Source: Pseudonocardia broussonetiae (GTDB lineage: Bacteria; Actinomycetota; Actinomycetes; Mycobacteriales; Pseudonocardiaceae). Taken from it: DNA of 64,000 nucleotides. Under the pieces are notes generated by a model. The model was not told where the DNA came from and did not search any database. It was given only the letters and a program-made list of their open reading frames with translations. Shown piece by piece: positions 4,639 through 28,132 of this stretch; position 1 is the first letter of the stretch, and each line of letters starts with the position of its first letter. The stretch is from contig NZ_CP053564.1 in assembly GCF_013155125.1 (NCBI RefSeq), forward strand, positions 441,501 through 505,500. The letters run 5' to 3'. The position numbers and the translations under genes are program-made.

Positions 4639-4829
4639 AACGCCGCACGGTACGCCGGGCGAGGCGGTGCGGCCGGTGTTAGGCGGGGCCTCACGGACCG
4701 GTGGACCTGCGTCACGGCGGGCGCGGTGCACGGGGCTCCGCGGGGTACCTGCCACTGGTCAGCACCTCCCGACAGGTCGATGAGCCGGTCTCGGTGGGGC
4801 TGGGATCGGCCGGCTCGTGAGGGGGAGAC

Positions 4830-5816
4830 GTGCGTTCGTACCGGGCGGGTGAGCTGCTGCTCGCCGAGACCGCCACCTCGCCCGGCAGCACGTCCGAGCG
4901 CGCGCAGGCCCTGCTCGAGGTGCTCCGCCGGGTCGTCCCGTTCGACGGGGCGTGGCTGGCGCTGGCCGACCCGCTCGGTCGCGGCTACCACTCGCTGGCG
5001 AGCGTCGACGTGGACGTCCCGACCGTCGAGCACCTGTCGGGGGCGCTGATGTCGCGGAAGGTCGGGTGCGTGCATCCGACGTCGGCCCCGCCGGAGCTGC
5101 CGCACCCGCCCGAGGAGCTGCCGAGCACCCCTTTCGCCTTCCACGAAGCGCTGGCGCTCGCCCTCTTCGCGCCTTCCGGGCGGCACGTCGGCTTCCTCGC
5201 GCTGCTGTCGGGAAGCCGTCAGCCGTCGCCCTCGGCCACCCGCCGTCGGCTCCGACGACTCGCCCCGGTGCTCGCACGCGGCATCGACCCGATGCGTTCG
5301 CTGCTCGGCACCGCGCACCTGGTGCGTGGGGCCACCGCCGGCGCGGTGCTCCGCGCGGACGGCGGCTGCCAACCGCTGCCGAGCCTGCCGGCGCACCCCC
5401 TGCTGGACCCCGGCTCGTCCGTCCTGGCCGTGGCGCGGGAGCGCATCGACGACGGACACCTGCACTCGTCGTTCCTCTGGCCGCGGGGCGGCCCGCACGC
5501 CCCCGACGGGCACGTCCGCGTCACGGTCCTGTCGGCACCCGAGGACGTGCCGCCCGGGCTGACCGGCCTGGCCCTGCTGTCACCGGCGACCGACCTGCGC
5601 GGGCTGACCCCGCGGGAGATCGAGGTGCTGGGGCTGCTGGTCGAGGGCCGCTCGAACCAGGAGATCGCCCGGACGCTGGTCGTCGCCCCGCGGACCGTGG
5701 CCTCCCACGTCGAACACGTCCTCGGCAAGCTCGGGGCGTCGACGAGGACCCTCGCGGCGGTCCGGGCGGAGCGGGAGGGGCTCTACGTCCCGCACCGGGA
5801 GCGCCGGTGCGGGTGA
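4830..5816 (+). CDS. LuxR family transcriptional regulator (helix-turn-helix, GAF-like sensor)
   Basis: A 328-residue protein with a GTG start behind GAGGGGGA. The C-terminal 65 residues are a LuxR/GerE DNA-binding domain: LTPREIEVLGLLVEGRSNQEIA, then VAPRTVASHVEHVLGKLGAS. The N-terminal part (VLRRVVPFDGAWLALADPLGR, VGFLALLSGSR) resembles a GAF-type sensor, but no ligand residues can be named. It is divergent from the LysR gene and convergent with the MetF-like gene, 7 bp away. A decayed copy of its DNA-binding end lies at 6892-7008. Confidence 0.88.
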   Translation: MRSYRAGELLLAETATSPGSTSERAQALLEVLRRVVPFDGAWLALADPLGRGYHSLASVDVDVPTVEHLSGALMSRKVGCVHPTSAPPELPHPPEELPSTPFAFHEALALALFAPSGRHVGFLALLSGSRQPSPSATRRRLRRLAPVLARGIDPMRSLLGTAHLVRGATAGAVLRADGGCQPLPSLPAHPLLDPGSSVLAVARERIDDGHLHSSFLWPRGGPHAPDGHVRVTVLSAPEDVPPGLTGLALLSPATDLRGLTPREIEVLGLLVEGRSNQEIARTLVVAPRTVASHVEHVLGKLGASTRTLAAVRAEREGLYVPHRERRCG

Positions 5817-7038: not shown

Positions 7039-7782
7039 ATGACCGACGGCAGCGGCCTGCAGCGCCGACCCCTCCAGGGTGTGGTCAACATGGTCGCCCG
7101 GACCCTGCTGCGCATCCCGCTCCTGTCCCGGCTCGTGGGGAGGGGGCTGATCGTCCTGTACGTCGTCGGGCGCAAGTCCGGGAACCGGTACACGGTGCCG
7201 ATGGCGTACGTGCGACACGAGGGCGCCCTCCTGCTCGGGTCGGGGTTCGCCTGGGGCAAGAACCTGCGCACCGGCGATGCGCTGGAGGTCCGTTACAAGG
7301 GCGAGCGCCGTGTGGCCGATGTCCGGGTCCTGACCGATGAGGCGTCGGTGGTCGAGCACTACGCCGTGATCGCGCGCCGCAATCCCGGCTTCGCGAGGTT
7401 CAACGGTGTCGGGTTCGGCGCCGACGGAGATCCCGATCCCGACGACCTGCACGGCGTGGACGAACGGTGCTCGGGTCTTCCTGCTGACACTGCGCTGATC
7501 ACGCGCAGCACCTCTCGCCGCGGACCGGGTCCGTCGCGGTCAGGCGGAGTGCGTGGTGCCCAGCCCTGCCCGGCGCACCTTCCCGCTCTCCGTGCGCGGC
7601 AGGTGGTCGACCGACTCCCTGCGCGACGTGCGCGAGCCGACGCGGCGCGCTGGGCGCGGCTCCGGCGACCGTCACATGCTCGTCAACCGCAATGGCCGAC
7701 CGGGCGCAGCACCTCGCCCGCCGCGGCGGCAGCACGTGGACCGGCCGGGATGATCCCGCGCAGTCGTGACGACGCTTCGTGA
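7039..7782 (+). CDS. Deazaflavin (F420)-dependent nitroreductase-family protein, 3' end frameshifted
   Basis: ATG preceded by AGGAGG. The first ~140 residues fit the DUF385/Ddn-like family of F420-binding oxidoreductases: VGRKSGNRYTVPMAYVRHEGALLLGSGFAWGKNLRTG, then VVEHYAVIARRNPGFARFNGVGFGADGDPDPDDL. After that the open frame becomes an Arg/Pro-rich tail to 7782. A neighbouring frame from about 7455 gives WTNGARVFLLTLR and a stop at 7496-7498, the normal family ending (~153 residues). So the gene most likely ended at 7498 and has a frameshift near 7453-7456; the tail is probably not native. Between 7783 and the att repeat I see no gene. Confidence 0.7.
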   Translation: MTDGSGLQRRPLQGVVNMVARTLLRIPLLSRLVGRGLIVLYVVGRKSGNRYTVPMAYVRHEGALLLGSGFAWGKNLRTGDALEVRYKGERRVADVRVLTDEASVVEHYAVIARRNPGFARFNGVGFGADGDPDPDDLHGVDERCSGLPADTALITRSTSRRGPGPSRSGGVRGAQPCPAHLPALRARQVVDRLPARRARADAARWARLRRPSHARQPQWPTGRSTSPAAAAARGPAGMIPRSRDDAS

Positions 7783-7925
7783 GCCGGCCTTGACCGGCGC
7801 GGGCCATGACCCGGACCGACCCGGTGGCAGCTGCTCGGGGCGGCCCGTCGGGCGAGCTCGGTGTCCCGGACTGTGGAGCTCGAGATGCGAGCCCCGAGGT
7901 CACGCGGAAGCCTGCGGGGGATGGA

Positions 7926-7976
<51 letters not shown>

Positions 7977-8198
7977 GAAAGCCGTGCGCCGTCTCCAATG
8001 CCTCTACCAGCAGCTTTAGCACCCACTCTCGCCCCGGCCTGCCCCTCCTGCCGCACCACGCGCCGACAGTTCGCACCACGCAGTGCACCACGCGAGGTGC
8101 GAGCGGTTCAAGCTTCGTGGCGGCCCCGGACGAGGCAGGGCGCGCCGTCGTCGGATGTCACCGCAGGAACGGTCTCTAGCGCTACCGCGAGCGCCTAA

Positions 8199-13538: not shown

Positions 13539-14107
13539 GGGCCCGGGCCGTGCTCTACGGACTGCTCGCGGTGGTGGCGAGCGCCGCAGCGGTGCTGTCG
13601 TTCGCTGCACTGCGCGACCTGGCCCTGCTGTGCGGCTTCGCCCCGGCGCTGGCCTGGCTGCTGCCGGTGGTCGTCGACGCGGGCGCCGCGGCCGGATCGC
13701 TGGTCTGGCTGGGCGGTCCGGCCGCCGACGCCGCACGGCGGTTCGCCCGCACTCTCGCGCTGACGCTGCTCGCGCTGTCGGTCGCGGCCAACGCGCTCGG
13801 GCACGGCTTGGCCGCCTACACCGTCGCGCCCGCGTGGTGGGTGGTCGTCGCGGTCTCCTCCGTCGCGCCGGCCGTCCTCGGGGCGGTCGTGCACCTGGCC
13901 GTCCTCGTGGGCCGACCGGCCGACACCCCGCCTGAGTCCCGACAGGAACAACCGCACGACTTGGCCGGCGACCTCATCGCGGCTGGGGCAGGACGGCGCC
14001 GGCTCTCCCGGGAGTTGGGCGTCACCGAGCACGAAGCGCGGCAGCTGCTGCAACGCACCCGTGCCACCACCAACGGGCACGTCCTCGACTCAGGAGATCC
14101 AGAATGA
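13535..14107 (+). CDS. DUF2637-like membrane protein (spread/transfer associated)
   Basis: A 190-residue protein with four predicted membrane helices (AVLYGLLAVVASAAAVLSFA; FAPALAWLLPVVVDAGAAAG; ARTLALTLLALSVAANALGH; WVVVAVSSVAPAVLGAVVHL) and a C-terminal helix-turn-helix-like segment (RRRLSRELGVTEHEARQLLQ). This arrangement is that of DUF2637 proteins found with actinobacterial transfer genes. GTG start overlaps the upstream stop; its own stop overlaps the ATPase start. Confidence 0.8.
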   Translation: MRARAVLYGLLAVVASAAAVLSFAALRDLALLCGFAPALAWLLPVVVDAGAAAGSLVWLGGPAADAARRFARTLALTLLALSVAANALGHGLAAYTVAPAWWVVVAVSSVAPAVLGAVVHLAVLVGRPADTPPESRQEQPHDLAGDLIAAGAGRRRLSRELGVTEHEARQLLQRTRATTNGHVLDSGDPE

Positions 14108-15873
14108 ACGGCTCGACGCTCGTGATCCTGCTGGCCCTGCTCGCCGGGTCGGCCCTGGCCTGGCGGCGCGGTGCGCGCGCCCTGGCGACCGCACTGGTCC
14201 TCGTGGCAGCGCTCCCAGCCGTCACTCTGCTCAAGCAGACGCCGATCTGGGCGGTCGTCGCCGTCGGCGTCGTCCTGGTGGGCGTGCTGTGGCACCGGCA
14301 CGCCCGCACCGCCGCCACGATCACCCGCTGGAGCGCCATGTCCCGGCGCAAGGCGGGCGTCGCCTCGACGATGGACATCGCCCGGGTGGCGAGCGCGCCG
14401 GCCATGCGCCGCAAGGCAGCCAGCGTCCGCCCATCCCTCGCGCAGACGACCCGGCTCGCGCGGTGGCTCCAGCTCGTTCGGCTCCCGGCCGTCGAGGTGG
14501 CGGTGCGGCTGTGCCGCGTCGGTGCGCAGTCGGTGTGGGCGTCGGTCGAGGACTTCATCGTCGTGTTCGGCGGGCCGCGGACGGGCAAGACCCAGTGGCT
14601 CGCCGGGCGGATCATCGACGCCTCCGGAGCGCTGCTGGTCACCAGCACCCGGACCGACCTGCTCGACATCACCGCATTGCTGCGCGCCCGCAAGGGCCCG
14701 GTCTACGTGTTCAACGCCGTTGGGCTGGCTGGCCTGCCGTCCACGATCACGTTCGACCCGCTCACCGGGTGCACCGATCCCACGACCGCGGCGGAGCGGG
14801 CGGCCGACATGCTCGGCGCCTCCCGCGGCGGGAGCGGCGACCGGGAGTTCTGGGACGCCCAGGGCCGGCGGGTGTTGGCCGCGCTGATGCACGCTGCCGC
14901 GCTGGGCGGGCTGCACATGCGCGACGTGCTGGGCTGGGTCGCCGACCCGGACAGCGCCGGACGGGTGGAGTCGCTGCTGCGCCGCTCGCCCGAGGACGCG
15001 TTCGTGCAGGAGGCCCGGCAGTTCATCTCGACCAACGACCGCACCCGCAGCTCGATCACCTCCACGATCATGCCCGCGCTCGGTTGGCTGACCAGCTCCG
15101 CCGCCGCAGCCGCCGCCGAGGGCTCGACGCCGTTCGACGTCGCCGAGCTGCTGGCCTCCCGCGCGACGGTGTACCTGCTGGGTGCCGAGGAGACCCAGGC
15201 CGCGCCGCTGGTGTGCGCACTGACCGGGCACGTCGCCCGCGAGGCCCGCCGGATCGCTGCCGGCTGCCCGGGTGGGCGGCTCGACCCGCCGCTGACCCTC
15301 GCGCTCGACGAGGCCGCGCTGATCTCGCCGGTCCCGCTCCAATCGTGGAGCGCCGACATGGGCGGGCGCGGGGTGACGATCATCAGCGCGTTCCAGTCCC
15401 GGGCGCAGCTACTCGCCCGCTACGGCCAGCACGACGCCGCGACGACCCTCAACAACGCCGGGTCGGTCATGGTGTTCGGCGGCACCCGTGACCGGGACGA
15501 CCTCAACTTCTGGGCCACGCTCGGCGGAGAGCGCGACGAGCCGATCACGACCACCGACCTGCACGGGCGGGTCGCCTCCCGCACCGTGCGCAAGGTCCCG
15601 GTCGTGGCACCCGCGCAGATCGCGAACCTGCCCGCCGGGCGCGTGGTGACCTTCCGCCGCGGGATGCCCCCGGTCGTCGGGACCGTCGACATGGCGTGGC
15701 GACGCCGCGACGTCCGCGCACTGTCCCGTCCAGGCGGGCGGTGGGAGCGGTCGCGCCGCGCGTGGGCGTGGCTCACCCGCCCGCCCCTCTCCCCCGCCCA
15801 CCAGGTGGCGCCGGTCGCCCGGGACCTCCCGCCGTGGGCCACCGCCCGACCCGATGACGGCTGGTGCAACTGA
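14104..15873 (+). CDS. VirD4/TraG-like type IV coupling ATPase
   Basis: A 589-residue protein. Two N-terminal membrane helices (residues ~3-20 and ~30-60) are followed by a RecA-like ATPase: Walker A FGGPRTGKTQWLAGR near residue 156 and Walker B LTLALDEAALISP near residue 400, then a motif like VTIISAFQSRAQL. The order and length match TraM-recognition/VirD4-type coupling proteins that hand the relaxase-DNA complex to a secretion channel. The element has a MobF relaxase but no visible channel genes, so it may recruit a partner's apparatus (inference). ATG overlaps the DUF2637 stop. Confidence 0.87.
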   Translation: MNGSTLVILLALLAGSALAWRRGARALATALVLVAALPAVTLLKQTPIWAVVAVGVVLVGVLWHRHARTAATITRWSAMSRRKAGVASTMDIARVASAPAMRRKAASVRPSLAQTTRLARWLQLVRLPAVEVAVRLCRVGAQSVWASVEDFIVVFGGPRTGKTQWLAGRIIDASGALLVTSTRTDLLDITALLRARKGPVYVFNAVGLAGLPSTITFDPLTGCTDPTTAAERAADMLGASRGGSGDREFWDAQGRRVLAALMHAAALGGLHMRDVLGWVADPDSAGRVESLLRRSPEDAFVQEARQFISTNDRTRSSITSTIMPALGWLTSSAAAAAAEGSTPFDVAELLASRATVYLLGAEETQAAPLVCALTGHVAREARRIAAGCPGGRLDPPLTLALDEAALISPVPLQSWSADMGGRGVTIISAFQSRAQLLARYGQHDAATTLNNAGSVMVFGGTRDRDDLNFWATLGGERDEPITTTDLHGRVASRTVRKVPVVAPAQIANLPAGRVVTFRRGMPPVVGTVDMAWRRRDVRALSRPGGRWERSRRAWAWLTRPPLSPAHQVAPVARDLPPWATARPDDGWCN

Positions 15874-16109: not shown

Positions 16110-16738
16110 CCGCGCCGGACGCCCATGACGCCGCGATGGGCCGGGAGCACGCCCGCACCGTGCGCCGCGTCAGCGAGCTGGAGACGCTCGTCCAGCAGCT
16201 CTGCGCCGACGTCCACACGATCGCCCGCCGTGTCGGCGGTGCGGCCGAGCCGGAGGCGAAGCAGGTACCGGGGTCCTGGCTGCTCGCCGACGACCCTGTC
16301 GGCGCCGCGGCCCAACTGGGCGAACTCGTGGAGTGGCTGTACCGGGTCTATCTCCGCTACCAGGGCACCTGGCTGCCGACATGCTGGCTCTGGCACGCCG
16401 ACGCCGTCGAGGAGCTGTGGTGGCTGCGCTGCGCGCACGCCGACGCCTACGACCCCGACCGCGGTTCCTGGCAGCGCGCCGCCGACTGGCACGACCGCCA
16501 GCGCCCCGGCGTCGTCCGGCGCCTCACGAAGGAGATCGGCAGCTGCGAGCTGTCGCTGCACCTCCCCGGCGCCCGCCGCGCGGTACCACCCACGCCGGTC
16601 CCGCTGGCTCCAGCCGCCGCGCAGATCGCCGCGTCCTGGATCGACTCCGGCCGACACGCCCCGGCACCCGTACCGACGCCCGACCAGCTGGCAGCAGCCG
16701 AACGACACGATCACGACCAGTACCGGAGCCAACGATGA
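16106..16738 (+). CDS. DUF4913-like protein of the transfer operon
   Basis: A 210-residue protein. The core LGELVEWLYRVYLRYQGTWLPTCWLWHADAVEELWWLRCAHADAYD has the Trp-rich pattern W-Y-x(n)-W-x-P-C-W-x-H-x(2)-A seen in DUF4913 proteins of actinobacterial plasmids (quoted here in pieces: LVEWLYRVYLRYQ, WLPTCWLWHADAVEELWW). An N-terminal coiled coil precedes it. Always near relaxases in my recollection; function unknown, perhaps a relaxosome accessory. ATG overlaps the preceding stop. Confidence 0.68.
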   Translation: MTAPDAHDAAMGREHARTVRRVSELETLVQQLCADVHTIARRVGGAAEPEAKQVPGSWLLADDPVGAAAQLGELVEWLYRVYLRYQGTWLPTCWLWHADAVEELWWLRCAHADAYDPDRGSWQRAADWHDRQRPGVVRRLTKEIGSCELSLHLPGARRAVPPTPVPLAPAAAQIAASWIDSGRHAPAPVPTPDQLAAAERHDHDQYRSQR

Positions 16739-17007
16739 CGACCTCACCGAACGCGACTACCGATCAGAACCACACGACCCGATCACTCACGACCACGACA
16801 CACACGAACGACGACCACCAAGCACCCGAAGATCAATCGACAGACAAAGACCAAGATCCGAATTTCCAGCACACCCAGGCATCCGGATCCCCTGGTACCC
16901 GCCGCGAGCCCTGGCGGGCCGCGGCGAAGATCAACTGCAGGGCCCGGTGCGACGCCTCGCGCTCGACTACGGACGGTCACCGGATCGGCCGGGTGTCGTC
17001 GTGCTGA
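16735..17007 (+). CDS. Candidate small Thr/Asn/Asp-rich protein before the relaxase
   Basis: A 90-residue frame whose ATG overlaps the DUF4913-like stop (ATGA) and whose stop lies just inside the relaxase start. The peptide is of low complexity (TTSPNATTDQNHTTRSLT). Its codon pattern is weak, and the alternative relaxase frame across the same bases (with GIRIPWYPPRALAG) also looks protein-like, so this may be a leader or simply the region of an N-terminal relaxase extension. Low confidence. Confidence 0.35.
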   Translation: MTTSPNATTDQNHTTRSLTTTTHTNDDHQAPEDQSTDKDQDPNFQHTQASGSPGTRREPWRAAAKINCRARCDASRSTTDGHRIGRVSSC

Positions 17008-20000
17008 GCCTGGCGACCGGCCACGACGTCGGCTACCTGACCGGAGCCGTCGCGGCTGGCCGGGAGAGCTACTACACCGGCGCCGTCGACGCCGGCGAGC
17101 CGCCGGGGCGGTGGGCCGGCGCCGGGGCCGAGCGACTGGGCCTGCACGGCACGGTCGACGCCGACCTGATGGAAGCGGTCTACACGCACCTCCTCGACCC
17201 CCGCGACGCCGCGACGCACTCGCGGGCAACGTGGAACGAGGCGGCCGCGCTGGCTGCCCCACACCGCAAGTACCGGACGCCGGAGCAGATTTACGAGCAG
17301 CTGCTGGAGGCTCAGCCGGAGGCCGGCCCCGAGGAGCGCGCCACATTGCTGGCCCAGGCTGAGCGGTCCGCCCGACAGGCCGTGTCGTTCATCGACGCCA
17401 CGTTCTCCGCGCCGAAGTCGGTCACCGTCCTGGCCGTCGCGTTCGAGCGGGCCGCCAGCGACGCTGCCGCAGCCGGCGACCACGAGGCCGCCGCGGCGTG
17501 GGCGGCGCACGCCAAGGCCGTCGAGGACGCGGTGCTGGCCGGCGCGACCGCGGCGATCCGCTACCTGGAGGACGAAGCCGGCTACTCCCGCGTGGGGCAC
17601 CACGGCGGCGGCGCCGGGCGGTGGATCGACACCGAGGGGTTCGTCGTCGCGCAGTTCCTGCAGCACGACTCCCGCGACCGCGACCCGCAGCTGCACGTGC
17701 ACCAGGCGATCCTCAACCGCATCCTGTGCGCCGACGGGGAGTGGCGCACGCTCGACTCCCGCGCGATCCACGCCATGCGCGCTGCCGCCGGGGCCATCGC
17801 GGAACGGGTGATGGAGGCCCACCTGACGCAGGCGCTCGGCGTGCGGTTCCAGACCCGCGCCGACGGCAAGGCCCGCGAGGTCGTCGGGGTGCAACAGGAG
17901 GTCATGGACCTGTTCTCCTCCCGCCGCCGGGCGGTGTCCGCCCGCACCCGGGAGCTGGTCGACGCCTTCCAGACCCGGTACGGGCATAAGCCGAACGCGC
18001 TGCAACGGACCCGCCTCGCCATGCAGGCCACGCTCAGCACCCGCGCGGCCAAGTCGCACGAGGGCGAGACCCGCGACCAGCAGCTCGACCGGTGGGCCGC
18101 TGCGCTTGAGGCCGAGGTGGGCACGACGCTGGGCCAGGTGGCCCGCGATGTGCTCTCGCTGCGCCAGCAGGCCGACCCGGCGGCCACCTGGTCACCACAG
18201 GACGTCATCGACCGCGCTCTGGCGCGGGTGGCGCAGACCGGGTCCTCGTTCACCCGCTCCGACCTGATCCGGGCGGTGTCCGACGAGCTGCCCGCCCACC
18301 TGGGCGTGGCTCCCGAGGAGGTGCGGGCGTTGCTCGACGGAGTGAGCGACGACGCCCTGGCCGGCGCGGTGTGCCACGTGCAGGAGACGGATGTGAGCGA
18401 GTGGCCCGAGGAGCTGCGGCTGCGCGACGGCCGGTCGGCGTTCGACGGGCCGGGCTCCGCCCGCTACAGCACCGACGAGCAGTTCCGGGCCGAGGCCGCG
18501 CTGCGCGCCGCGGCAGTCACGCGAGGCGCCACGGCGCTGAGCGACGTGCAGGCGACCGCCGTCGTGGAGAGCTACACCGCAGCCGGCCGCGCGCTGGGCG
18601 TCGACCAGGCCGCCGCGCTGCACGGCGTGCTGACCTCCGGCGCGTGGGTCGAGGTGCTCTCTGCCGCGCCCGGCACCGGCAAGTCGTTCGTCGTCGGCGC
18701 ACTGGCCGAGTCATGGACCACCCCGACCGCCGACGGGGAGCAACGGCGGGTGTTCGGGCTCGCGCCGTCCCAGATCGCCGCCCGAGTGCTGACCGAGGAG
18801 GGTGTGTCCGCCGCGGCCAACACCACCGCGTGGCTGGGCGCGCAGCGCCGGCTTGACGGCGGGTCCGCCGCGGACGAGGCGTGGCGGCTGCGCGGCGGGG
18901 ACCTGGTAGTCGTCGACGAGGCGAACATGGCCGGTACCGACCAGCTTGCCGAGATCCAGCGCCGCTGTGGCGCGGCGGGCGCGAAGCTGCTGCTGGTGGG
19001 CGACCCTCGCCAGCTCGCCGCGGTCGGGCCGGGCGGAGCGTTGGCCGACGTCGCCGAGCACGGGCTGCGCTACGAGCTGGCCGAGGTGCGCCGGTTCTCC
19101 GCCGAGTGGGAGCGCGCGGCGTCGCTGCGGTTGCGCGCCGGGGACGCGTCCGTGCTCGACGAGTACGCCAAGCACGGCCGGCTGCGCGACGGCGGCACCG
19201 CCGAGCAAGCCGAAGCCGCCGCGGGGCGGGCGTGGCTCGCCGACACCCTGTCCGGGCGGGAGTCGCTGCTGATGGTGCGCGACAACGCCACCGCCGCCCG
19301 AGTCTCGGCGCAGCTGCGCGCAGAGCTGGTCGACCTGGGCAAGGTCGACGAGGCCGGCGTGTCGCTGGGGATGGCCGGCTGGGAGGGAGTCACCGCCGGG
19401 GTCGGCGACCTCGTCCAGGCCCGACGCAACGCCTGGCACCTCGCCGGGTTCGAGGGCAACGAGCGCGCTCCGATCAACCGCGACACCTTCCGCGTCGTCG
19501 CCGTTCGCGCCGACGGCGGGCTGACCGTCGCTCCGATCACCGGCCGCGCCGCAGACGACACCCCGCCCGAGCAGGTGAGCGCATTCGGCGAGGCCCTGGG
19601 CACCCCGATGCAGCTGCCCGCCCGCTACGTCACCGAGCACGTCACCCTCGCCTACGCCGCGACCGCCCACGCCGCCGAGGGACGCACCGTCGACACCGCG
19701 CACGGGGTGTTCGGCGCCGGGACCGACACCGCCGGCCTGCTCGTCCCGATGACCCGCGGCCGCGACGCCAACACCGCGTGGGTCGTGACGACCGCACTCG
19801 CCGCCGACGCACCGACCGGCGAGGCCACGACGACGATGGCCCGCACCCCACGCGCCGTCCTGGCCGAGGTGCTCGACAACGACCGCGCCGAACGCACTGC
19901 GACCGCCGACCGCGAGGCCGCCGAACTCGCCACCCGCTCGACCATGACCCACCTTGACCGCCTCATCGACCTCTCCGCACAGGTCACTGCCGGCCGCACC

Positions 20001-21347
20001 GCCGCCACCCTCGACCAGCTCGCCGCGAACGGCGCCCTCTCCCCCGCCGACCGTCGCGCCCTGGCCGCCGACGAGGCGCTCGGCAGCCTGGAGCGGCTGC
20101 TGCGCACCGCCGAGCTGGCCGGCCACGACCCCGCCCAGGTCCTCACCACCGCCGCCGAGGCCCGCAGCCTCGACGGCGCGACGTCCCCGGCGAAGGTGCT
20201 GCACCACCGCATCACCCATGCCCTGCACGGTCAGCTCACCCCGCGGATCGACAGCGCCACCGACCTCATCCCCACCCAGGTCGACCCCGGCCGCCGCCGC
20301 GACTGGCTCCAGGCCCGCGCCGACGACGCCGAGACCCGCCGCCACGAGCTCGGCGCCCAGGCCGCCGCCGATCCCCCGCGCTGGGCCCTCGACGCACTCG
20401 GCCCGGTCCCCGGCGAGGGCGACGACGTGACAGCCCGCCTGGAGTGGGAGCGCCGCGCCGGCTGGGCCGCCGCGTGGCGCGAGCTGGCCGGCCACACCGA
20501 CGAAGACGACCCGCTCGGCCGCGCACCCGCCCGCGGGCTGATCGAGAAGTCCGCGCTGTTCCGCAAGGCGCACGAGGAGCTGCGGCTGCTTGACGTCGGA
20601 GCAGAGGAGGCCGACATGTCCGACGGCCGCCTACGCGCTCGCGTCCGTGCGATGCAACTGGAGGAGGAACGCGCCCCCGCCGACGTAGCAGACGAGCTGG
20701 CCGCCGCGCACGAGCTGGCAGACAAGGCCCGCGTCGACGCCACGGTCTGGGCCGCCCGCGCCGAGGCCGCCACCGGCCCCGACCGCGAGCAGCTCCAGGC
20801 CGCCGCCGAGCAAGCGGCCCGCACCGCCGCCGAGACGGCCGACCGCATCAACGGACTCGAGGCCGCCGACGAGGCCCGCGGGCAGTGGTACCTCGACTCG
20901 GTGGTCACCCGTGACTACGCCCACCGCTCCGCCTCCGAACTCCGCGCCCGCGGCATCGACCCCCACGACACCAGCGACCACGTCACCGGTGACGACTGGC
21001 TCGACGCCCACCGCGCCGCCCAGGCCGACGACGACCAGCACCGCGAGATCCACCCCGACGACCTGGCCAACGAACACGACGACCCCCGTACCGCCGTCCT
21101 GGAGCCCCGGGAGCGCCAGCCGATCCGGGAGGTCGACCAGACGGCCGAGATGGTCGCGCAGGCCCAGGAGACCCTGCGCATGATCGAGGAGCGCCGCGCC
21201 GCCGAGGTCGAACAGGCTGCCCACGAAGCAAGTCGGGTCGCCGAAGAGGAAGCCCGCGCAGCCCAGCTCACCCAGTGGTCGCAGGAGGACAACCAGACCG
21301 TCACCGACACCGCGGAGGTCGACGACAGCCAGGCCCTCGAACGCTGA
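17001..21347 (+). CDS. MobF family conjugative relaxase-helicase (TrwC/TraA-like)
   Basis: A very large protein, 1,448 residues from the GTG at 17001 (VLSLATGHDVGYLTGAV). N-terminal TrwC relaxase: catalytic tyrosines in ESYYTGAV at residues 24-25, and the metal-binding three-histidine motif HDSRDRDPQLHVHQ near residue 222. Then a RecD-like helicase with Walker A SAAPGTGKSFVVGAL near residue 555, DLVVVDEANMAG (Walker B) and VGDPRQLAAVGPGG. The C-terminal third is a long, charged, coiled-coil-rich tail. It nicks at oriT and unwinds the strand to be transferred. The start is uncertain: the frame is open upstream to 16125, but the tyrosine position supports 17001. Confidence 0.92.
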   Translation: MLSLATGHDVGYLTGAVAAGRESYYTGAVDAGEPPGRWAGAGAERLGLHGTVDADLMEAVYTHLLDPRDAATHSRATWNEAAALAAPHRKYRTPEQIYEQLLEAQPEAGPEERATLLAQAERSARQAVSFIDATFSAPKSVTVLAVAFERAASDAAAAGDHEAAAAWAAHAKAVEDAVLAGATAAIRYLEDEAGYSRVGHHGGGAGRWIDTEGFVVAQFLQHDSRDRDPQLHVHQAILNRILCADGEWRTLDSRAIHAMRAAAGAIAERVMEAHLTQALGVRFQTRADGKAREVVGVQQEVMDLFSSRRRAVSARTRELVDAFQTRYGHKPNALQRTRLAMQATLSTRAAKSHEGETRDQQLDRWAAALEAEVGTTLGQVARDVLSLRQQADPAATWSPQDVIDRALARVAQTGSSFTRSDLIRAVSDELPAHLGVAPEEVRALLDGVSDDALAGAVCHVQETDVSEWPEELRLRDGRSAFDGPGSARYSTDEQFRAEAALRAAAVTRGATALSDVQATAVVESYTAAGRALGVDQAAALHGVLTSGAWVEVLSAAPGTGKSFVVGALAESWTTPTADGEQRRVFGLAPSQIAARVLTEEGVSAAANTTAWLGAQRRLDGGSAADEAWRLRGGDLVVVDEANMAGTDQLAEIQRRCGAAGAKLLLVGDPRQLAAVGPGGALADVAEHGLRYELAEVRRFSAEWERAASLRLRAGDASVLDEYAKHGRLRDGGTAEQAEAAAGRAWLADTLSGRESLLMVRDNATAARVSAQLRAELVDLGKVDEAGVSLGMAGWEGVTAGVGDLVQARRNAWHLAGFEGNERAPINRDTFRVVAVRADGGLTVAPITGRAADDTPPEQVSAFGEALGTPMQLPARYVTEHVTLAYAATAHAAEGRTVDTAHGVFGAGTDTAGLLVPMTRGRDANTAWVVTTALAADAPTGEATTTMARTPRAVLAEVLDNDRAERTATADREAAELATRSTMTHLDRLIDLSAQVTAGRTAATLDQLAANGALSPADRRALAADEALGSLERLLRTAELAGHDPAQVLTTAAEARSLDGATSPAKVLHHRITHALHGQLTPRIDSATDLIPTQVDPGRRRDWLQARADDAETRRHELGAQAAADPPRWALDALGPVPGEGDDVTARLEWERRAGWAAAWRELAGHTDEDDPLGRAPARGLIEKSALFRKAHEELRLLDVGAEEADMSDGRLRARVRAMQLEEERAPADVADELAAAHELADKARVDATVWAARAEAATGPDREQLQAAAEQAARTAAETADRINGLEAADEARGQWYLDSVVTRDYAHRSASELRARGIDPHDTSDHVTGDDWLDAHRAAQADDDQHREIHPDDLANEHDDPRTAVLEPRERQPIREVDQTAEMVAQAQETLRMIEERRAAEVEQAAHEASRVAEEEARAAQLTQWSQEDNQTVTDTAEVDDSQALER

Positions 21348-22321: not shown

Positions 22322-23569
22322 GTGTTGGAGCCGCACGACGAATCGTCCGATGATCAGGACAACGCTGAGACGACGGTCGACTCCCAGCAGCCGTTCTTCA
22401 GGAGCAGGCGCGCAGCCGCCGTGCTCAAGCACGCGATCCTCGCGAAGTACGTCGTCCCCTTTGCATCGAAGACCGGATCGACCTCGACCGGCAAGCGTGT
22501 CGTCATCGTGGACGGCTATGCCGGCGCAGGCCGCTACGAGGACGGCTCACCCGGGTCGCCGGCCCTCATCGCGGAGGCAGCTCGCAGCCCCGCGTTGAGC
22601 GGGCGCATCGTCGAGTGCCACTTCGTCGAGCAGGACGCCGCCACCTACAGGGGCTTGCGCGAGGTGCTTGAGGAGGTCGACACCGACGGCAGCACCCTCG
22701 TGTGGAAGGCGCGGCACGGCAACGTCGCCGAGCACCTCGACGAACTGCTCGCTTGCGCCGAGGGAGTACCACTATTCCTGTTCCTTGACCCGTTCGGACT
22801 CGGCCTGCCGTTCGATGTCATCGTCGACATCTTTGACGGCAGGCCGTCGGGCCAGTACGTGCCCGCGACGGAAGTGCTGTTCCGCTTCGATGCGAATGCG
22901 GTCCGCCGCATCCGTGGCGTGCTACATAAGAACGACGGCACCAATAAGGGTCGAGAGAAGACGCTCGAAAGGCTGGACCACGCCGCCGGCGGTACCTGGT
23001 GGCGGGACGAGGATGACCCGACCCTCAATAACACCCAGTACCTTGAGTGGTTCGAGCAGCGCCTGCTCACTGAGATTACCAGCCGCGCAAAGTGTGCCGG
23101 ATGGACCGCCGTTGTCAAGCAGCGGGAGGACTTGCAGCCGGCCTACTGGCTTGTGTTCCTCACCCGTCACCGTGACGGAATGGAGGTTTTCGGCGAGACG
23201 CTCAGCAAGGCGCAGGAGACATGGCGGCGCGCCGTGTTTGACGAAGCTTTCGCCGCGAGGCAAGACGGCGGCCAGGATGCATTGATCACACTCGATGCCG
23301 ACGCGATCTTCAAGCGCCAGGAGGCCGAACTCACGGAGCAATTACAGGACCAAATCGAGCTAAATCTTCGTGCACTATTGCGGGATCACGAGAGGTTCAT
23401 CGTTCGAACCAAGTTTGAGGAGGTCTACAAGAGCGTCGAGGGAATTGCACGTACGACGCATCTGCGTAAGGCGCTCAAGAGACTGCATGACGCCGGCATC
23501 ACCACTTCGAACCAGGTCGGCGACGTCTACTCAAAGCAGGTGATCCGTCGGCCCGGTGCTCAGCCATGA
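22322..23569 (+). CDS. tcmP: Three-Cys-motif partner protein TcmP
   Basis: A 415-residue protein from the GTG at 22322 (a TTG at 22325 has better spacing to GAGGGGG). It matches the TcmP family: FRSRRAAAVLKHAILAKYVV at the N-terminus, VVIVDGYAGAGRYEDGSPGSP (a Rossmann methyltransferase-like glycine loop), HFVEQDAATYRGL, LFLFLDPFGLGLPF, and a C-terminal winged-helix-like region (GIARTTHLRKALKRLHDAGI). TcmP proteins are defined by their genomic pairing with a three-Cys-motif protein, here the convergent gene overlapping by 10 bp. Biochemical role unknown; nucleic-acid modification or defence are guesses. Position beside the integrase marks it as cargo. Confidence 0.88.
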   Translation: MLEPHDESSDDQDNAETTVDSQQPFFRSRRAAAVLKHAILAKYVVPFASKTGSTSTGKRVVIVDGYAGAGRYEDGSPGSPALIAEAARSPALSGRIVECHFVEQDAATYRGLREVLEEVDTDGSTLVWKARHGNVAEHLDELLACAEGVPLFLFLDPFGLGLPFDVIVDIFDGRPSGQYVPATEVLFRFDANAVRRIRGVLHKNDGTNKGREKTLERLDHAAGGTWWRDEDDPTLNNTQYLEWFEQRLLTEITSRAKCAGWTAVVKQREDLQPAYWLVFLTRHRDGMEVFGETLSKAQETWRRAVFDEAFAARQDGGQDALITLDADAIFKRQEAELTEQLQDQIELNLRALLRDHERFIVRTKFEEVYKSVEGIARTTHLRKALKRLHDAGITTSNQVGDVYSKQVIRRPGAQP

Positions 23570-24336
23570 CCCGCGAGAATCGACTCCGCCCAGCGCGAGC
23601 TTGCGACCGGCATCTCGTCAAAGGTCCGGCCGCCTAGCAGCCGTCCGCCGGCCTTGGGGGTGCGCCCGCCCCACTGCTTGAAGAAGAACGCGACGCCGGC
23701 GTCGCCGCACGCGGCGCGGAGGCCCTCGATCCACAGCGGATCGACGATTCTGTGATTCGGACCGGACTCGCCGCCGGCGATCAGCCAGTCGATCCCGTCG
23801 AGGTCGAGGTCGTCGAGCGGGCCGAGCAGCGGCTCTGCAGAGACGAAGCGGACCGCTGCAGGCACCTCGCGCAGCCGGTCGGCACGCCAGCCCTGCTCGA
23901 TCCTCTCGACGCTTACACCCATCCACACGTTACTCGGCCACGGCAGCGAGTTGGCCATCCGGGCCAGCCGCTTCGGCCGCTTCGTAAGTAGCTGGTAGGT
24001 GTGGCGAGGCGTCTCGGCCATCACGTCAAAGACGCGGCGAACGAAGGCGTCGGGCACGCGGGCGTGAAAGAGGTCCGACATCGAGTTGACAAAGACCACC
24101 CGCGGCGCCGCCCACCGCTTTGGCACCTCGAGCGCATCCTCGTGGATCTGCACGCCGAAGCCGGGACCGCTCGTGCGCGGATCGCCGTCGACCTGATACT
24201 TCGGGTTCCCCATCGCCTTGAGCCGCTTCGCCAGGGTCAGGGCGTAGCAGTTGTCGCAGCCTGAGGTGATGCGGTCGCACCCCGTCGTCGGATTCCACGT
24301 GGCTTCGGTCCACTCGATCGAACTCTTGTCTGCCAC
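23560..24336 (-). CDS. Three-Cys-motif protein, phage Gp37/Gp68 (DUF5131) family
   Basis: A 258-residue protein. It opens SSIEWTEATWNPTTGC, then DRITSGCDNCYALTLAKRLKAMGN: cysteines spaced C-x6-C-x2-C, which defines the three-Cys family and resembles a radical-SAM-like FeS site. Further family signatures: FVNSMSDLFHARVP, YQLLTKRPKRL, NVWMGVSVE, RFVSAEPLLGPL, LIAGGESGPNHR, FFFKQWGGRTPK. It is convergent with and overlaps tcmP by 10 bp. The pair is recurrent in bacterial and phage genomes with no established function that I know. Confidence 0.92.
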   Translation of the reverse strand: MADKSSIEWTEATWNPTTGCDRITSGCDNCYALTLAKRLKAMGNPKYQVDGDPRTSGPGFGVQIHEDALEVPKRWAAPRVVFVNSMSDLFHARVPDAFVRRVFDVMAETPRHTYQLLTKRPKRLARMANSLPWPSNVWMGVSVERIEQGWRADRLREVPAAVRFVSAEPLLGPLDDLDLDGIDWLIAGGESGPNHRIVDPLWIEGLRAACGDAGVAFFFKQWGGRTPKAGGRLLGGRTFDEMPVASSRWAESILAGHG

Positions 24337-24773: not shown

Positions 24774-25787
24774 GTGGCCGTTAACAACCCGAACCCGACC
24801 GTGAAGCCCGAGCGTGTTCTGTCCGTGCGCTCGATCGTGCTTGGCTCCCTCCTGTTACTGGTCGTGGCGATCGCGTCGGCGTGGGCTCTGCTGAGCTTCT
24901 ATGGCGGGGGCACAGCCACCGATTCCGCCAGACTCGACGCGATACGAACGACAGCCAACATCGTCCTCGGAACGGGCGGTGCCGCCGCCCTACTCCTCGC
25001 CGCGCGGCGGCAGAGATCGACAGAGCAAACCCTCGAACACCAACGCGAGGTTGCGGCTGCGACAGATCGAGACAATATCGAGCGCAGAATTACCGAGCTG
25101 TACACCAAAGCTGCCGAACAACTGGGAAGTGACAAGGCCCCGGTCCGCCTTGCCGGCGCCTACGCACTAGAGCGACTAGGTCAGAATAATCCAGATCAAC
25201 GCGAGCTTGTCATGAGTATCCTTTGTGCATACCTTCGCATGCCGTTCGAATCCTCTCCAGAAACAAGAGAAGAGGCAGAGGTTCGACTAGCTGTATTCAG
25301 CATTATTGGGAGGCATGTGTCCAACAGGAACTCTAACGAGTCCGAGAAGTTCTGGCCAGGACAAGTCCTCGACCTACAGGGTGCCCGATTGCTAGCGCTG
25401 AACTGGATGGATGCCGAGCTCAGGATCCTAAATATTGATCATGCCACTTTCGACAAGGGCCTCTCTCTTCGTAGATGCAAACTGAACATCCTAAGCGCCT
25501 CGGGGTGCACGTTCAACGGACCCTTCTTAATAAGCGAGACCGAGATTGAAATGATGGCCTTCTTCGACGACGCCGATTTCAATTGGACGACCGCCGCGAG
25601 CATCCGCGACACACGCCTACCGGACACCACTGAGCTGTCCGGAAACTTTCGCGTTCCGCCTGATCTCTATGGCTCGTCGATGAAAGACTCGCCGGACGGG
25701 GCCTTCCGCGATGCTCCGGACGGCTGGAGACTCCATCAGGATCAGGATCGCGATAGCAGATGGTACTTCGTCTCGGAATCAAACTAG
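24774..25787 (+). CDS. Membrane-anchored pentapeptide-repeat-like protein (element cargo)
   Basis: A 337-residue protein from a GTG. Two N-terminal membrane helices (VRSIVLGSLLLLVVAIASAW; ANIVLGTGGAAALLLAA), then a charged helical linker (TEQTLEHQREVAAATDRDNI; RRITELYTKAAEQLGSDK; VRLAGAYALERLGQNN), then a degenerate pentapeptide-type region (DLQGARLLALNWMDAEL; DHATFDKGLSLRRCKL; SGCTFNGPFLI). This architecture is common in actinobacteria and phage-rich islands. Role unknown. Lower GC than the transfer operon, like the other cargo. Convergent with the integrase. Confidence 0.72.
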   Translation: MAVNNPNPTVKPERVLSVRSIVLGSLLLLVVAIASAWALLSFYGGGTATDSARLDAIRTTANIVLGTGGAAALLLAARRQRSTEQTLEHQREVAAATDRDNIERRITELYTKAAEQLGSDKAPVRLAGAYALERLGQNNPDQRELVMSILCAYLRMPFESSPETREEAEVRLAVFSIIGRHVSNRNSNESEKFWPGQVLDLQGARLLALNWMDAELRILNIDHATFDKGLSLRRCKLNILSASGCTFNGPFLISETEIEMMAFFDDADFNWTTAASIRDTRLPDTTELSGNFRVPPDLYGSSMKDSPDGAFRDAPDGWRLHQDQDRDSRWYFVSESN

Positions 25788-26149: not shown

Positions 26150-27967
26150 CTATGCGAAAGCCACAAAGGTTATTACCGCTGCCATATCGGTGGGCAGTCG
26201 TACGTCCATCTCGTACTCATCGATCTGGGCTGGATCTCCGCCGCGCCGACGTACCGCGGCGACGAGCAGTTTCCGCAGGTCTGCTCCGGAGTTCAGATCG
26301 ACCTCCGCGGAGAACCGAGCAAAGTCCGCCCCAAGGTGCCGAACGTGCATATCTGCCATGAAACGCTCCACGGCCGGGAACTCGCCTACTGTCAACTGCC
26401 GATCCAGACCGCTTCCACGAATCAGACTCATCGTCGTCACAGGTTGCGCGACCTCGCCACACTCGACGACATCGAGCACGACTGCGCGACGCCCTTGACG
26501 GACATCGACAATTCCCCACTCACTGAGTAGCGCAGTCGCGCGATGTGCAGTCCCAGTAGCCACTCCGTACTGACGGGCCAGCTCGACGTTGCTGGGGAGC
26601 AGCGAGCCTGAGGGTAGCCGGCCATCCAGGATCTGCGCACGCAACTCAGCGGCGACGAGTTCGTATGGACTGCGCGCCCCACGCTCGGCCGAGTTGGTCG
26701 AACCCGGCGAACTCGACGGCCGCTGAGGCAGGCGATCGAGGAGTCCAGCAGACGCCCTCTGGTCCGCCTCCGACACCCACGCCGCGTAAACCCGTAGCGT
26801 TGTCGTCCCGCCGCCCCCGTGCCCGAGCCGGCCCGCCACCGTCCGCACGTCGACGCCACCCGCGATCAGCTCCGTCGCCGAGTAGTGCCGCAGCTTGTGG
26901 ATCGTTGTCTTGATGCCGATCCGGCGCGCCAGGCGCGAGTACCGCTGCCCCACTGTCGCCGGCTTCAGGTGCGTCGAGCCGTCCACGTCGCGGGAGAACA
27001 TGAACCCGTCGGCGGGAAGCTCGAAGCCCAGGCCGGCGCACAGGTCCATGTAGCGCTGCCGGTGGCCGGCCAGCAGCATCACCGTGTCCGGGTCCAGGGC
27101 GATCCGGCGGTGCTGGTGGGTCTTGGTGTCCTTCTCCCACGTCTCCCCGTCGAGCTGGGCGATCGAGCGGGCGACCGTCAGCACCCCGTTCACGACGTCC
27201 AGGTCGTTCCAGCGCAGGGCACACAGCTCGCCGCGGCGAAAGCCGGTCACCATCGTCAACCACACGAGCACGGCCCAGTCCGGATCCGACCACGCCTCGT
27301 TCAGGATGCGGGCCGCCTCGTCCGCGCTGGGCGGCTGCGGCTTGGCCGCCGGCTGCGGCGGGGCCTGGGCGTGCTCGATGGGGTTGGTCGAGAGCCAGCG
27401 CCAGCGCACGGCCCGTTTCAGGGCACCGCTGAGGATGACGTGGATCTGCCGGATGGTCGACCGGGACAGGCCACGGCAGCGGTGCGGGCCGCACCTGTGG
27501 TCGCAGTTGTGCGGTCGCACAGTCCGGTGCTCGACGAAGGGCCGGCGGTCGCAGTGCGCCCGGCAGCGGCGGAGCTCCGCGTAGAAGGAGTCGAACACCG
27601 CGGCCCGCAGCGCGCCGACCTTCTGCTTGCCGATCAGCGGCACGATGTGGGTCCGGGAGAGCGTCCGGTACGTCGACAGCGTGCTGGGCTCGACCTCGAG
27701 CAGCTCGAAGTGCTCGGTCAGCAGCTGCTCGACCGTCGCCGTGGTGCGCGGGTTGCGCTGCTCGTCGACCTGGACGGCGAGCCGGCGCAGGGCCTTGTCC
27801 GCCTCGATGGCCGCGCGGGGGCCGGCTGGGATGATCTCGCGCAGGTAGTGCCGACGCTTCGTGAGCGGGTCCTGGCCGGCGTAGACGACGACGCGTAGGG
27901 ACCCGCTGGGGAGCTGCTCGATGCGGCCCTTGGAGCGGGCCCGGCGTCGCGGCGCCGTGGAGGTCAT
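26150..27967 (-). CDS. Tyrosine integrase fused to a GntR-type DNA-binding domain
   Basis: A 605-residue protein. Residues ~10-400 are a tyrosine recombinase: SAM-like arm domain, the Cys/His insertion typical of actinobacterial element integrases (HNCDHRCGPHRC), then the catalytic set R in TGFRRGELCALRW, K in KDTKTHQHRRI, H-x-x-R in HKLRHYSATELIAGG, H in GRLGHGG and Y in TTLRVYAAW. Residues ~433-498 form a GntR winged helix (SPYELVAAELRAQILDGRLP; SNVELARQYGVATGTAHRAT; LLSEWGIVDVRQGRRAVVL), followed by a ~105-residue unknown tail. It integrates the element at tRNA-Ala, 93 bp away. Integrase-GntR fusion is unusual; single uninterrupted frame. Confidence 0.92.
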   Translation of the reverse strand: MTSTAPRRRARSKGRIEQLPSGSLRVVVYAGQDPLTKRRHYLREIIPAGPRAAIEADKALRRLAVQVDEQRNPRTTATVEQLLTEHFELLEVEPSTLSTYRTLSRTHIVPLIGKQKVGALRAAVFDSFYAELRRCRAHCDRRPFVEHRTVRPHNCDHRCGPHRCRGLSRSTIRQIHVILSGALKRAVRWRWLSTNPIEHAQAPPQPAAKPQPPSADEAARILNEAWSDPDWAVLVWLTMVTGFRRGELCALRWNDLDVVNGVLTVARSIAQLDGETWEKDTKTHQHRRIALDPDTVMLLAGHRQRYMDLCAGLGFELPADGFMFSRDVDGSTHLKPATVGQRYSRLARRIGIKTTIHKLRHYSATELIAGGVDVRTVAGRLGHGGGGTTTLRVYAAWVSEADQRASAGLLDRLPQRPSSSPGSTNSAERGARSPYELVAAELRAQILDGRLPSGSLLPSNVELARQYGVATGTAHRATALLSEWGIVDVRQGRRAVVLDVVECGEVAQPVTTMSLIRGSGLDRQLTVGEFPAVERFMADMHVRHLGADFARFSAEVDLNSGADLRKLLVAAVRRRGGDPAQIDEYEMDVRLPTDMAAVITFVAFA

Positions 27968-28050: not shown

Positions 28051-28132
<82 letters not shown>

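Follow-up and report, generated by a model that had tools for sequence, protein, structure and literature searches.

The gene pair described here lies in a 64,000-nucleotide stretch of the Pseudonocardia broussonetiae genome (contig NZ_CP053564.1, positions 441,501 to 505,500; hereafter referred to as the window), where a TcmP gene (22322-23569, + strand) and a DUF5131 (Gp37/Gp68) gene (23560-24336, - strand) are carried side by side on an integrative element. Based upon its sequence and predicted structure, TcmP is an RlmJ-like protein of the S-adenosylmethionine (SAM)-dependent methyltransferase type, and its neighbour is a radical-SAM-type protein. We give about an even chance to the reading that the two form a two-enzyme nucleic-acid modification module, which is carried as cargo by the element and most likely protects the host, and hence the element, from phages. 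As to its parts, we consider modification chemistry by the pair to be likely, and its putative function in antiviral defence to be plausible. The original prediction for this locus had suggested a defence or nucleic-acid-modifying role; the suggestion stays plausible, and it can now be made specific for TcmP in that its likeness is to RlmJ.

The family assignments made in the original prediction were borne out by profile searches. TcmP, which is 415 amino acids (aa) long and starts with a GTG codon, matches TIGR04474 with 132.8 bits, above the curated cut-off of 53, and no Pfam family was matched by it at E <= 0.01; its best named relatives are Pseudonocardia proteins showing 84 and 77% identity. 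The DUF5131 protein (258 aa) matches PF07505 with 315.5 bits (gathering cut-off 28.9), the match covering the model from position 1 to 243 of 243. For the TIGR04474 proteins a neighbour with three cysteines is expected, and in the window it is present as the convergent DUF5131. Both genes lie where they had been predicted, and their two stop codons fall inside exactly 10 shared bp (23560-23569; TCAGCCATGA on the + strand). The G+C content of the pair is 64.8%, compared to 69.2% for the element and 74.2% for the sequence right of it, and hence the pair looks foreign even inside the element. The genome from which the window is derived consists of 7.29 Mb in four contigs.

The likeness of TcmP to RlmJ, the methyltransferase responsible for N6-methyladenosine (m6A) at position 2030 of 23S rRNA, is seen in both its predicted fold and its residues. 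In searches with the AlphaFold model of TcmP, which has a predicted local distance difference test score of 91.5, structures of the RlmJ family filled ranks 1-10 of the structure matches; a search of solved structures with the TcmP sequence returned nothing credible. The catalytic Lys and the catalytic Asp of RlmJ are both retained. In an hhalign alignment, K36-H37 of TcmP (motif X; 22427-22432, + strand) are the counterpart of K18-H19 of RlmJ, with K36 kept in 54 of 54 and H37 in 40 of 53 ungapped alignment rows. Motif I extends from D64 to G70 (DGYAGAG; 22511-22531, + strand), D64 and G68 being kept in 52/53 and 53/53 ungapped rows, respectively. Motif IV (D156-G159, DPFG; 22787-22798, + strand) is aligned with the DPPY of RlmJ that contains D164, and its D156 is kept in all 54 ungapped rows.

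The radical-SAM-like arrangement of cysteines that had been noted in DUF5131, C-x6-C-x2-C, was also confirmed. It consists of C20, C27, and C30 (24247-24279, - strand), all of which are kept in each of the 110 close relatives that were aligned, and it provides the predicted site for 4Fe-4S chemistry. The usual spacing of the cluster motif in radical SAM enzymes is C-x3-C-x2-C, so that the spacing observed here is non-canonical. At E <= 0.01, the protein matched PF07505 and, weakly, PF17338, with no match to the Pfam Radical_SAM family, and no credible match was obtained when solved structures were searched with its sequence. Its fold matches the radical SAM superfamily, the top Z-values being tied between spore photoproduct lyase and viperin. 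A fold of this kind could also belong to a nucleic-acid repair or stress module, similar to spore photoproduct lyase, that was acquired by mobile DNA. We regard this as improbable, as viperin is an equally good match, direct repair would not be expected to involve a methyltransferase partner, and the location of the pair between repressor and integrase genes in phages (see below) would be left unexplained.

The association of TcmP with DUF5131 is real and strongly conserved, and it occurs more often than is expected by chance. In 396 actinobacterial genomes, TcmP was detected at E <= 0.001 in 41, DUF5131 in 43, and both of them in 29. Strong DUF5131 matches (>= 278 bits) were present in 29 of the same genomes, and 26 of these 29 also contained TcmP (E <= 0.001; Fisher p 5.5e-27, a value that is indicative only since the genomes are related). 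When genome contigs were searched through TcmP alone and the best 80 of 89 stretches encoding a TcmP relative were retained, DUF5131 was present in 80/80, and in 73 of them the two frames (taken from stop to stop) overlapped or were no more than 100 bp apart. The convergent layout seen in the window was common among these loci (65/80) but not universal, as the remaining 15 were co-directional (10 with DUF5131 first and 5 with TcmP first). In the best 80 of 529 viral stretches encoding a DUF5131 relative, TcmP was found near it in 46, within 100 bp in 44 of these; the 46 viral pairs included 20 convergent, 20 with TcmP first, 5 with DUF5131 first, and 1 divergent, and for the other 34 loci no TcmP was found in the stretch covered. 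As the linkage persists while the orientation varies, what is conserved is not the overlap as such. The results depended upon the query: a TcmP alignment detected 5 loci in the viral contigs and a DUF5131 query combined with a broader TcmP profile gave the 46 of 80, and in the genome contigs a single TcmP protein retrieved nothing where the alignment retrieved the 89 stretches. The complete genomes of E. coli contained no match to a Pseudomonas pair. A two-gene unit that is tightly linked and found on mobile DNA might also be an addiction module, in which the toxicity of one gene is counteracted by the other so that the element is retained in the cell. This appears highly improbable to us, because each of the two proteins has the appearance of a complete enzyme, TcmP is found beside differing partner families, and a convergent gene orientation is unusual for such modules.

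The differing partners were observed in genomes with TcmP and no strong DUF5131. There were 15 such genomes, of which 11 were examined together with one other (G047), giving 12 loci (L272-L283); the four genomes omitted had mostly short or weak matches. A search of the 12 loci for the pattern C-x3..9-C-x2-C found almost nothing. A neighbour matching the Pfam Radical_SAM family above its cut-off was present in four of them (L272, L274, L277, and L278), and in L273 the neighbour matched a PADLOC B model with 29.5 bits. The evidence was limited to the motif in L276, fell slightly under the Pfam cut-off in L279, was weak in L275, and consisted of sub-threshold PF07505 matches in L280 and L281; no radical-SAM partner was found in the two neighbour frames scanned for L282. 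The alternative neighbour has the spacing C-x3-C-x3-C in L272, L273, L274, L276, L277, and L278, and these proteins tie DUF5131, PF04055, and spore photoproduct lyase together by sequence. With a radical-SAM, motif, or weak PF07505 neighbour in most of the loci L272-L282, the notion that TcmP sometimes stands alone is weakened. The occurrence of TcmP beside differing radical-SAM families suggests that the role of TcmP is the constant one and that the partners act chemically upon a shared substrate.

The two proteins differ markedly in their rates of change. The comparison covered 112 loci in which the two genes are adjacent; 1,200 pairs of these loci were sampled, and 1,052 passed the length filters. 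The mean identity over these was 66.8% for DUF5131 and 35.0% for TcmP; DUF5131 had the higher value in 1,048 of the 1,052, and the identities of the two proteins were correlated (r 0.67). This suggests either a role of TcmP in specificity or diversifying pressure upon it, and relaxed constraint gives the same pattern. Two TcmPs with one DUF5131 were present in S. meliloti pSymA, B. glumae, an integrating conjugative element of P. aeruginosa, and an Amycolatopsis locus (L052). In the P. aeruginosa element (L265, 7184-7983), DUF5131 lies between the two TcmPs and is split over two overlapping frames. The near-obligate linkage and the much greater conservation of DUF5131 could alternatively be accounted for if DUF5131 had TcmP itself, or else a small peptide, as its substrate, TcmP being the effector, and some radical SAM enzymes do modify partner proteins. 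Nevertheless, many of the invariant positions of TcmP are methyltransferase motifs, and in S. meliloti and B. glumae one DUF5131 is found with two different TcmPs, and we consider maturation of this kind unlikely.

In the modification module that we favour, TcmP would methylate an exocyclic amine, most likely the N6 of adenine, in a structured RNA, and DUF5131, acting as a radical-SAM enzyme with a 4Fe-4S cluster on C20, C27, and C30, would act on the target of TcmP, so that a modified or hypermodified base would result from their joint action. The choice of target would lie with TcmP, which changes fast, and the shared chemistry would come from its conserved radical-SAM partner. More tentatively, and with decidedly less confidence than in the module itself, we propose an antiviral principle, employed by prophages, plasmids, and integrative elements, in which host or phage RNA is hypermodified through the combined action of an RNA methyltransferase related to RlmJ and a radical-SAM enzyme. 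TcmP would pick the target, and the second step would be carried out by radical-SAM proteins that are interchangeable and have the spacing C-x6-C-x2-C, C-x3-C-x3-C, or C-x3-C-x2-C.

The proposed recurrence of the pair on mobile DNA was evident, as it was seen on phages, plasmids, and integrative elements. Nine temperate Gordonia phages were examined, comprising eight of nine distinct TcmP-bearing phages (the remaining one is a faecal record without annotation) and BaxterFox; several of them are near-identical and do not represent nine independent cases, and the TIGR04474 match was checked directly for two of the nine. In all nine, TcmP and the convergent DUF5131 lie, in this order, between the repressor and the integrase. 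TcmP is on the repressor's strand, adjoining it in seven phages and one gene off in Jablanski and Pytheas; the repressor of Jablanski was assigned after the labels of Pytheas, another gene being labelled as repressor in the Jablanski record. In BaxterFox (L261), the full DUF5131 frame (4722-5750) is unannotated and small genes are annotated on the opposite strand. In mycobacteriophage Typha, the sole non-Gordonia phage examined of 156 DUF5131-matching phage records, no methyltransferase is annotated beside DUF5131.

Ten plasmid regions, which were hand-picked and do not constitute a sample, gave further contexts. On pSymA of S. meliloti (L264, 6000-11820), a compact cluster is formed by DUF5131, two TcmPs (one of the M30A type and one of the M41A type), and, at a further distance of 28 bp, a protein of 852 aa that matches PADLOC PDC-S28 with 1,016.9 bits. 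In one report, the TcmP SMa2243 is listed directly after Hna (SMa2245) with an equal two-fold change (PMC12445080), and we therefore identify the 852-aa protein as Hna; the pSymA record is without annotation at the cluster. Hna is described, in text that makes no mention of TcmP, as an abortive-infection exonuclease (PMC13381803). In Nocardioides pNOCA01, drmC is located 0.7 kb from TcmP; in Nocardia pPE-7, integrase, TcmP, convergent DUF5131, and MobF follow in a row; and in Mycolicibacterium pMYCCH.02 TcmP and DUF5131 are divergent.

These contexts also bear upon the possibility that the pair serves self-protection or counter-defence, modifying DNA or RNA of the element or phage itself and thereby escaping restriction in a new host. 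The carriers are phages and relaxase-bearing elements, the pPE-7 pair lies between integrase and MobF relaxase genes, and TcmP adjoins DUF5131 in the 46 viral loci, all of which would suit such a function. The Gordonia TcmPs, however, occupy a lysogenic position on the repressor strand, the S. meliloti pair adjoins hna, and in 67 of the 80 genome loci neither an integrase nor a relaxase nor a coupling protein was matched in the vicinity; hence, we hold this explanation to be rather unlikely. With regard to protection of the host from phages, which we prefer, two observations weigh against it. For the enrichment near mobile or defence genes, for which a survey had originally been suggested, the outcome is mixed: the phage and plasmid contexts are telling, but integrases are not clearly enriched near the 80 actinobacterial genome loci, integrase-like frames being found near 11/80 compared to 1/20 of the control stretches (chosen by us in genomes of the same phylum), which is not convincing. 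When all nine queries, which represented integrases, recombinases, relaxases, and coupling proteins, were combined, the numbers were 13/80 and 1/20; as the queries were limited to these nine, the counts are lower bounds. Secondly, 136 neighbour proteins yielded two integrases and scattered defence-model matches among the matches listed, with no scanned control, so that these Pfam and PADLOC scans carry little weight. They covered 136 of 378 proteins from 20 of 54 non-redundant loci (nine of a first group of 145 being omitted, eight from L058 and one from L047), and the family lists contain the best 25 of 139 and the best 25 of 68 families.

The slot of the pair in the window is as originally described, beside the integrase. 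The element, 20.2 kb in length, is by its anatomy an integrative mobilizable element, as an integrase, a tRNA attachment repeat, a MobF relaxase, and a coupling protein are all present; its excision and transfer are predicted. It is bounded by an exact 51-bp direct repeat, whose left copy is at 7926-7976 and whose right copy (28051-28101) lies in and just past the tRNA-Ala gene that is the integration site (28058-28132, - strand). This gene is abutted by a tyrosine integrase (26150-27967, - strand; PF00589), which has a GntR-type DNA-binding domain (PF00392) at its C-terminal end. Also inside the element are genes for a TraG/VirD4-type coupling protein (14104-15873, + strand; PF12696 and PF02534) and a MobF/TrwC relaxase (16947-21347, + strand; NF041492 with 177.8 bits and PF08751), the start of which is from the gene caller, the longest frame beginning at 16125. 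The TcmP/DUF5131 pair is located between the relaxase and the integrase, inside the repeats. Between DUF5131 and the integrase, an open reading frame that the gene caller did not pick (24774-25787) shows weak, sub-cut-off similarity to pentapeptide repeats. A tRNA-Val called by ARAGORN at 7932-8018 overlaps the left attachment copy and may be an attachment-site remnant and not a working tRNA. Left of this copy, 7763-7827 is a 75% identical repeat of the 5' part of the integrase gene (27845-27909), near which no second integrase was found by tblastn.

The suggestion that the pair constitutes an undescribed system has to be withdrawn, as such pairs are already listed in PADLOC-DB 2.0.0 as the defence candidates PDC-M30 and PDC-M41. 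The PDC systems are described as "guilt-by-embedding" candidates that are mostly unvalidated (PMC12988326). In another report, 100 strains of P. aeruginosa included 32 with a predicted PDC-M30, and 68.8% of the 32 were phage-resistant, which is a correlation only (PMC10855318); equating PDC-M30 with the TcmP/DUF5131 pair rests on the PADLOC models. Among the literature covered, from which most subscription papers and preprints were absent, no functional study of TcmP or DUF5131 was found among the papers listed, nor any study of the pair among those listed for DUF5131/PF07505, the PDC candidates, or RlmJ with phage defence. The term "three-Cys-motif partner" occurs in three papers, the accessible texts of which contained no functional test. 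According to one study, infection by T5 was reduced in an E. coli strain without RlmF and RlmJ, other T phages and lambda being unaffected, and no effect was seen with a Vibrio mutant (PMC11619597); the T5 result indicates that RNA m6A can be of importance for a phage. What is new here is the RlmJ-like identity of TcmP and its catalytic residues, the link of its partners to radical SAM by sequence and their swapping, the split between a conserved and a diverging protein, and the repressor-integrase location. For a widespread pair, this provides a concrete biochemical prediction, with catalytic residues, the kind of nucleoside change, and natural lysogens specified. If it is true, an antiviral system would exist in which a methyltransferase and a radical-SAM enzyme act in concert to modify RNA.

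The pair may finally be compared with known systems. TcmP shares with RlmJ the fold, the motif X Lys, and the motif IV Asp, whereas its motif IV reads DPFG in place of DPPY, the helical subdomain insert is absent (about 45 RlmJ residues between motif I and GSP are without a counterpart), and an additional C-terminal region is present; unlike RlmJ, it is found on mobile DNA and is adjoined by a radical-SAM-type protein in most loci examined. In view of the differences in motif IV and the insert, membership in the RlmJ family was rejected, and TcmP is predicted only to work like RlmJ, with no claim that it methylates A2030 of 23S rRNA. With spore photoproduct lyase and viperin, DUF5131 has in common a radical-SAM-type fold and three cysteines, and it differs from them in its C-x6-C-x2-C spacing, in matching no solved structure by sequence, and in its tied Z-values. 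Its similarity to radical SAM mobile pair protein A (TIGR04471) is weak, and this assignment was rejected, 73.6 bits being far under the cut-off of 355. Against PDC-M30B and PDC-M41B, DUF5131 scores strongly (322.9 and 339.5 bits); TcmP matches the corresponding A models weakly and with partial coverage (28.6 and 19.1 bits; best E 2.1e-7 and 2.1e-4), the actinobacterial branch to which it belongs being poorly covered by them. Lastly, the prophage defence genes gp43 and gp44 of the Gordonia phage CarolAnn are likewise two genes beside an immunity repressor, which are expressed in lysogeny and co-expressed with the repressor (PMC6426606); their products, in contrast to TcmP and DUF5131, are RexAB-like, consisting of a membrane protein and a DUF4747-like protein, and belong to other families.
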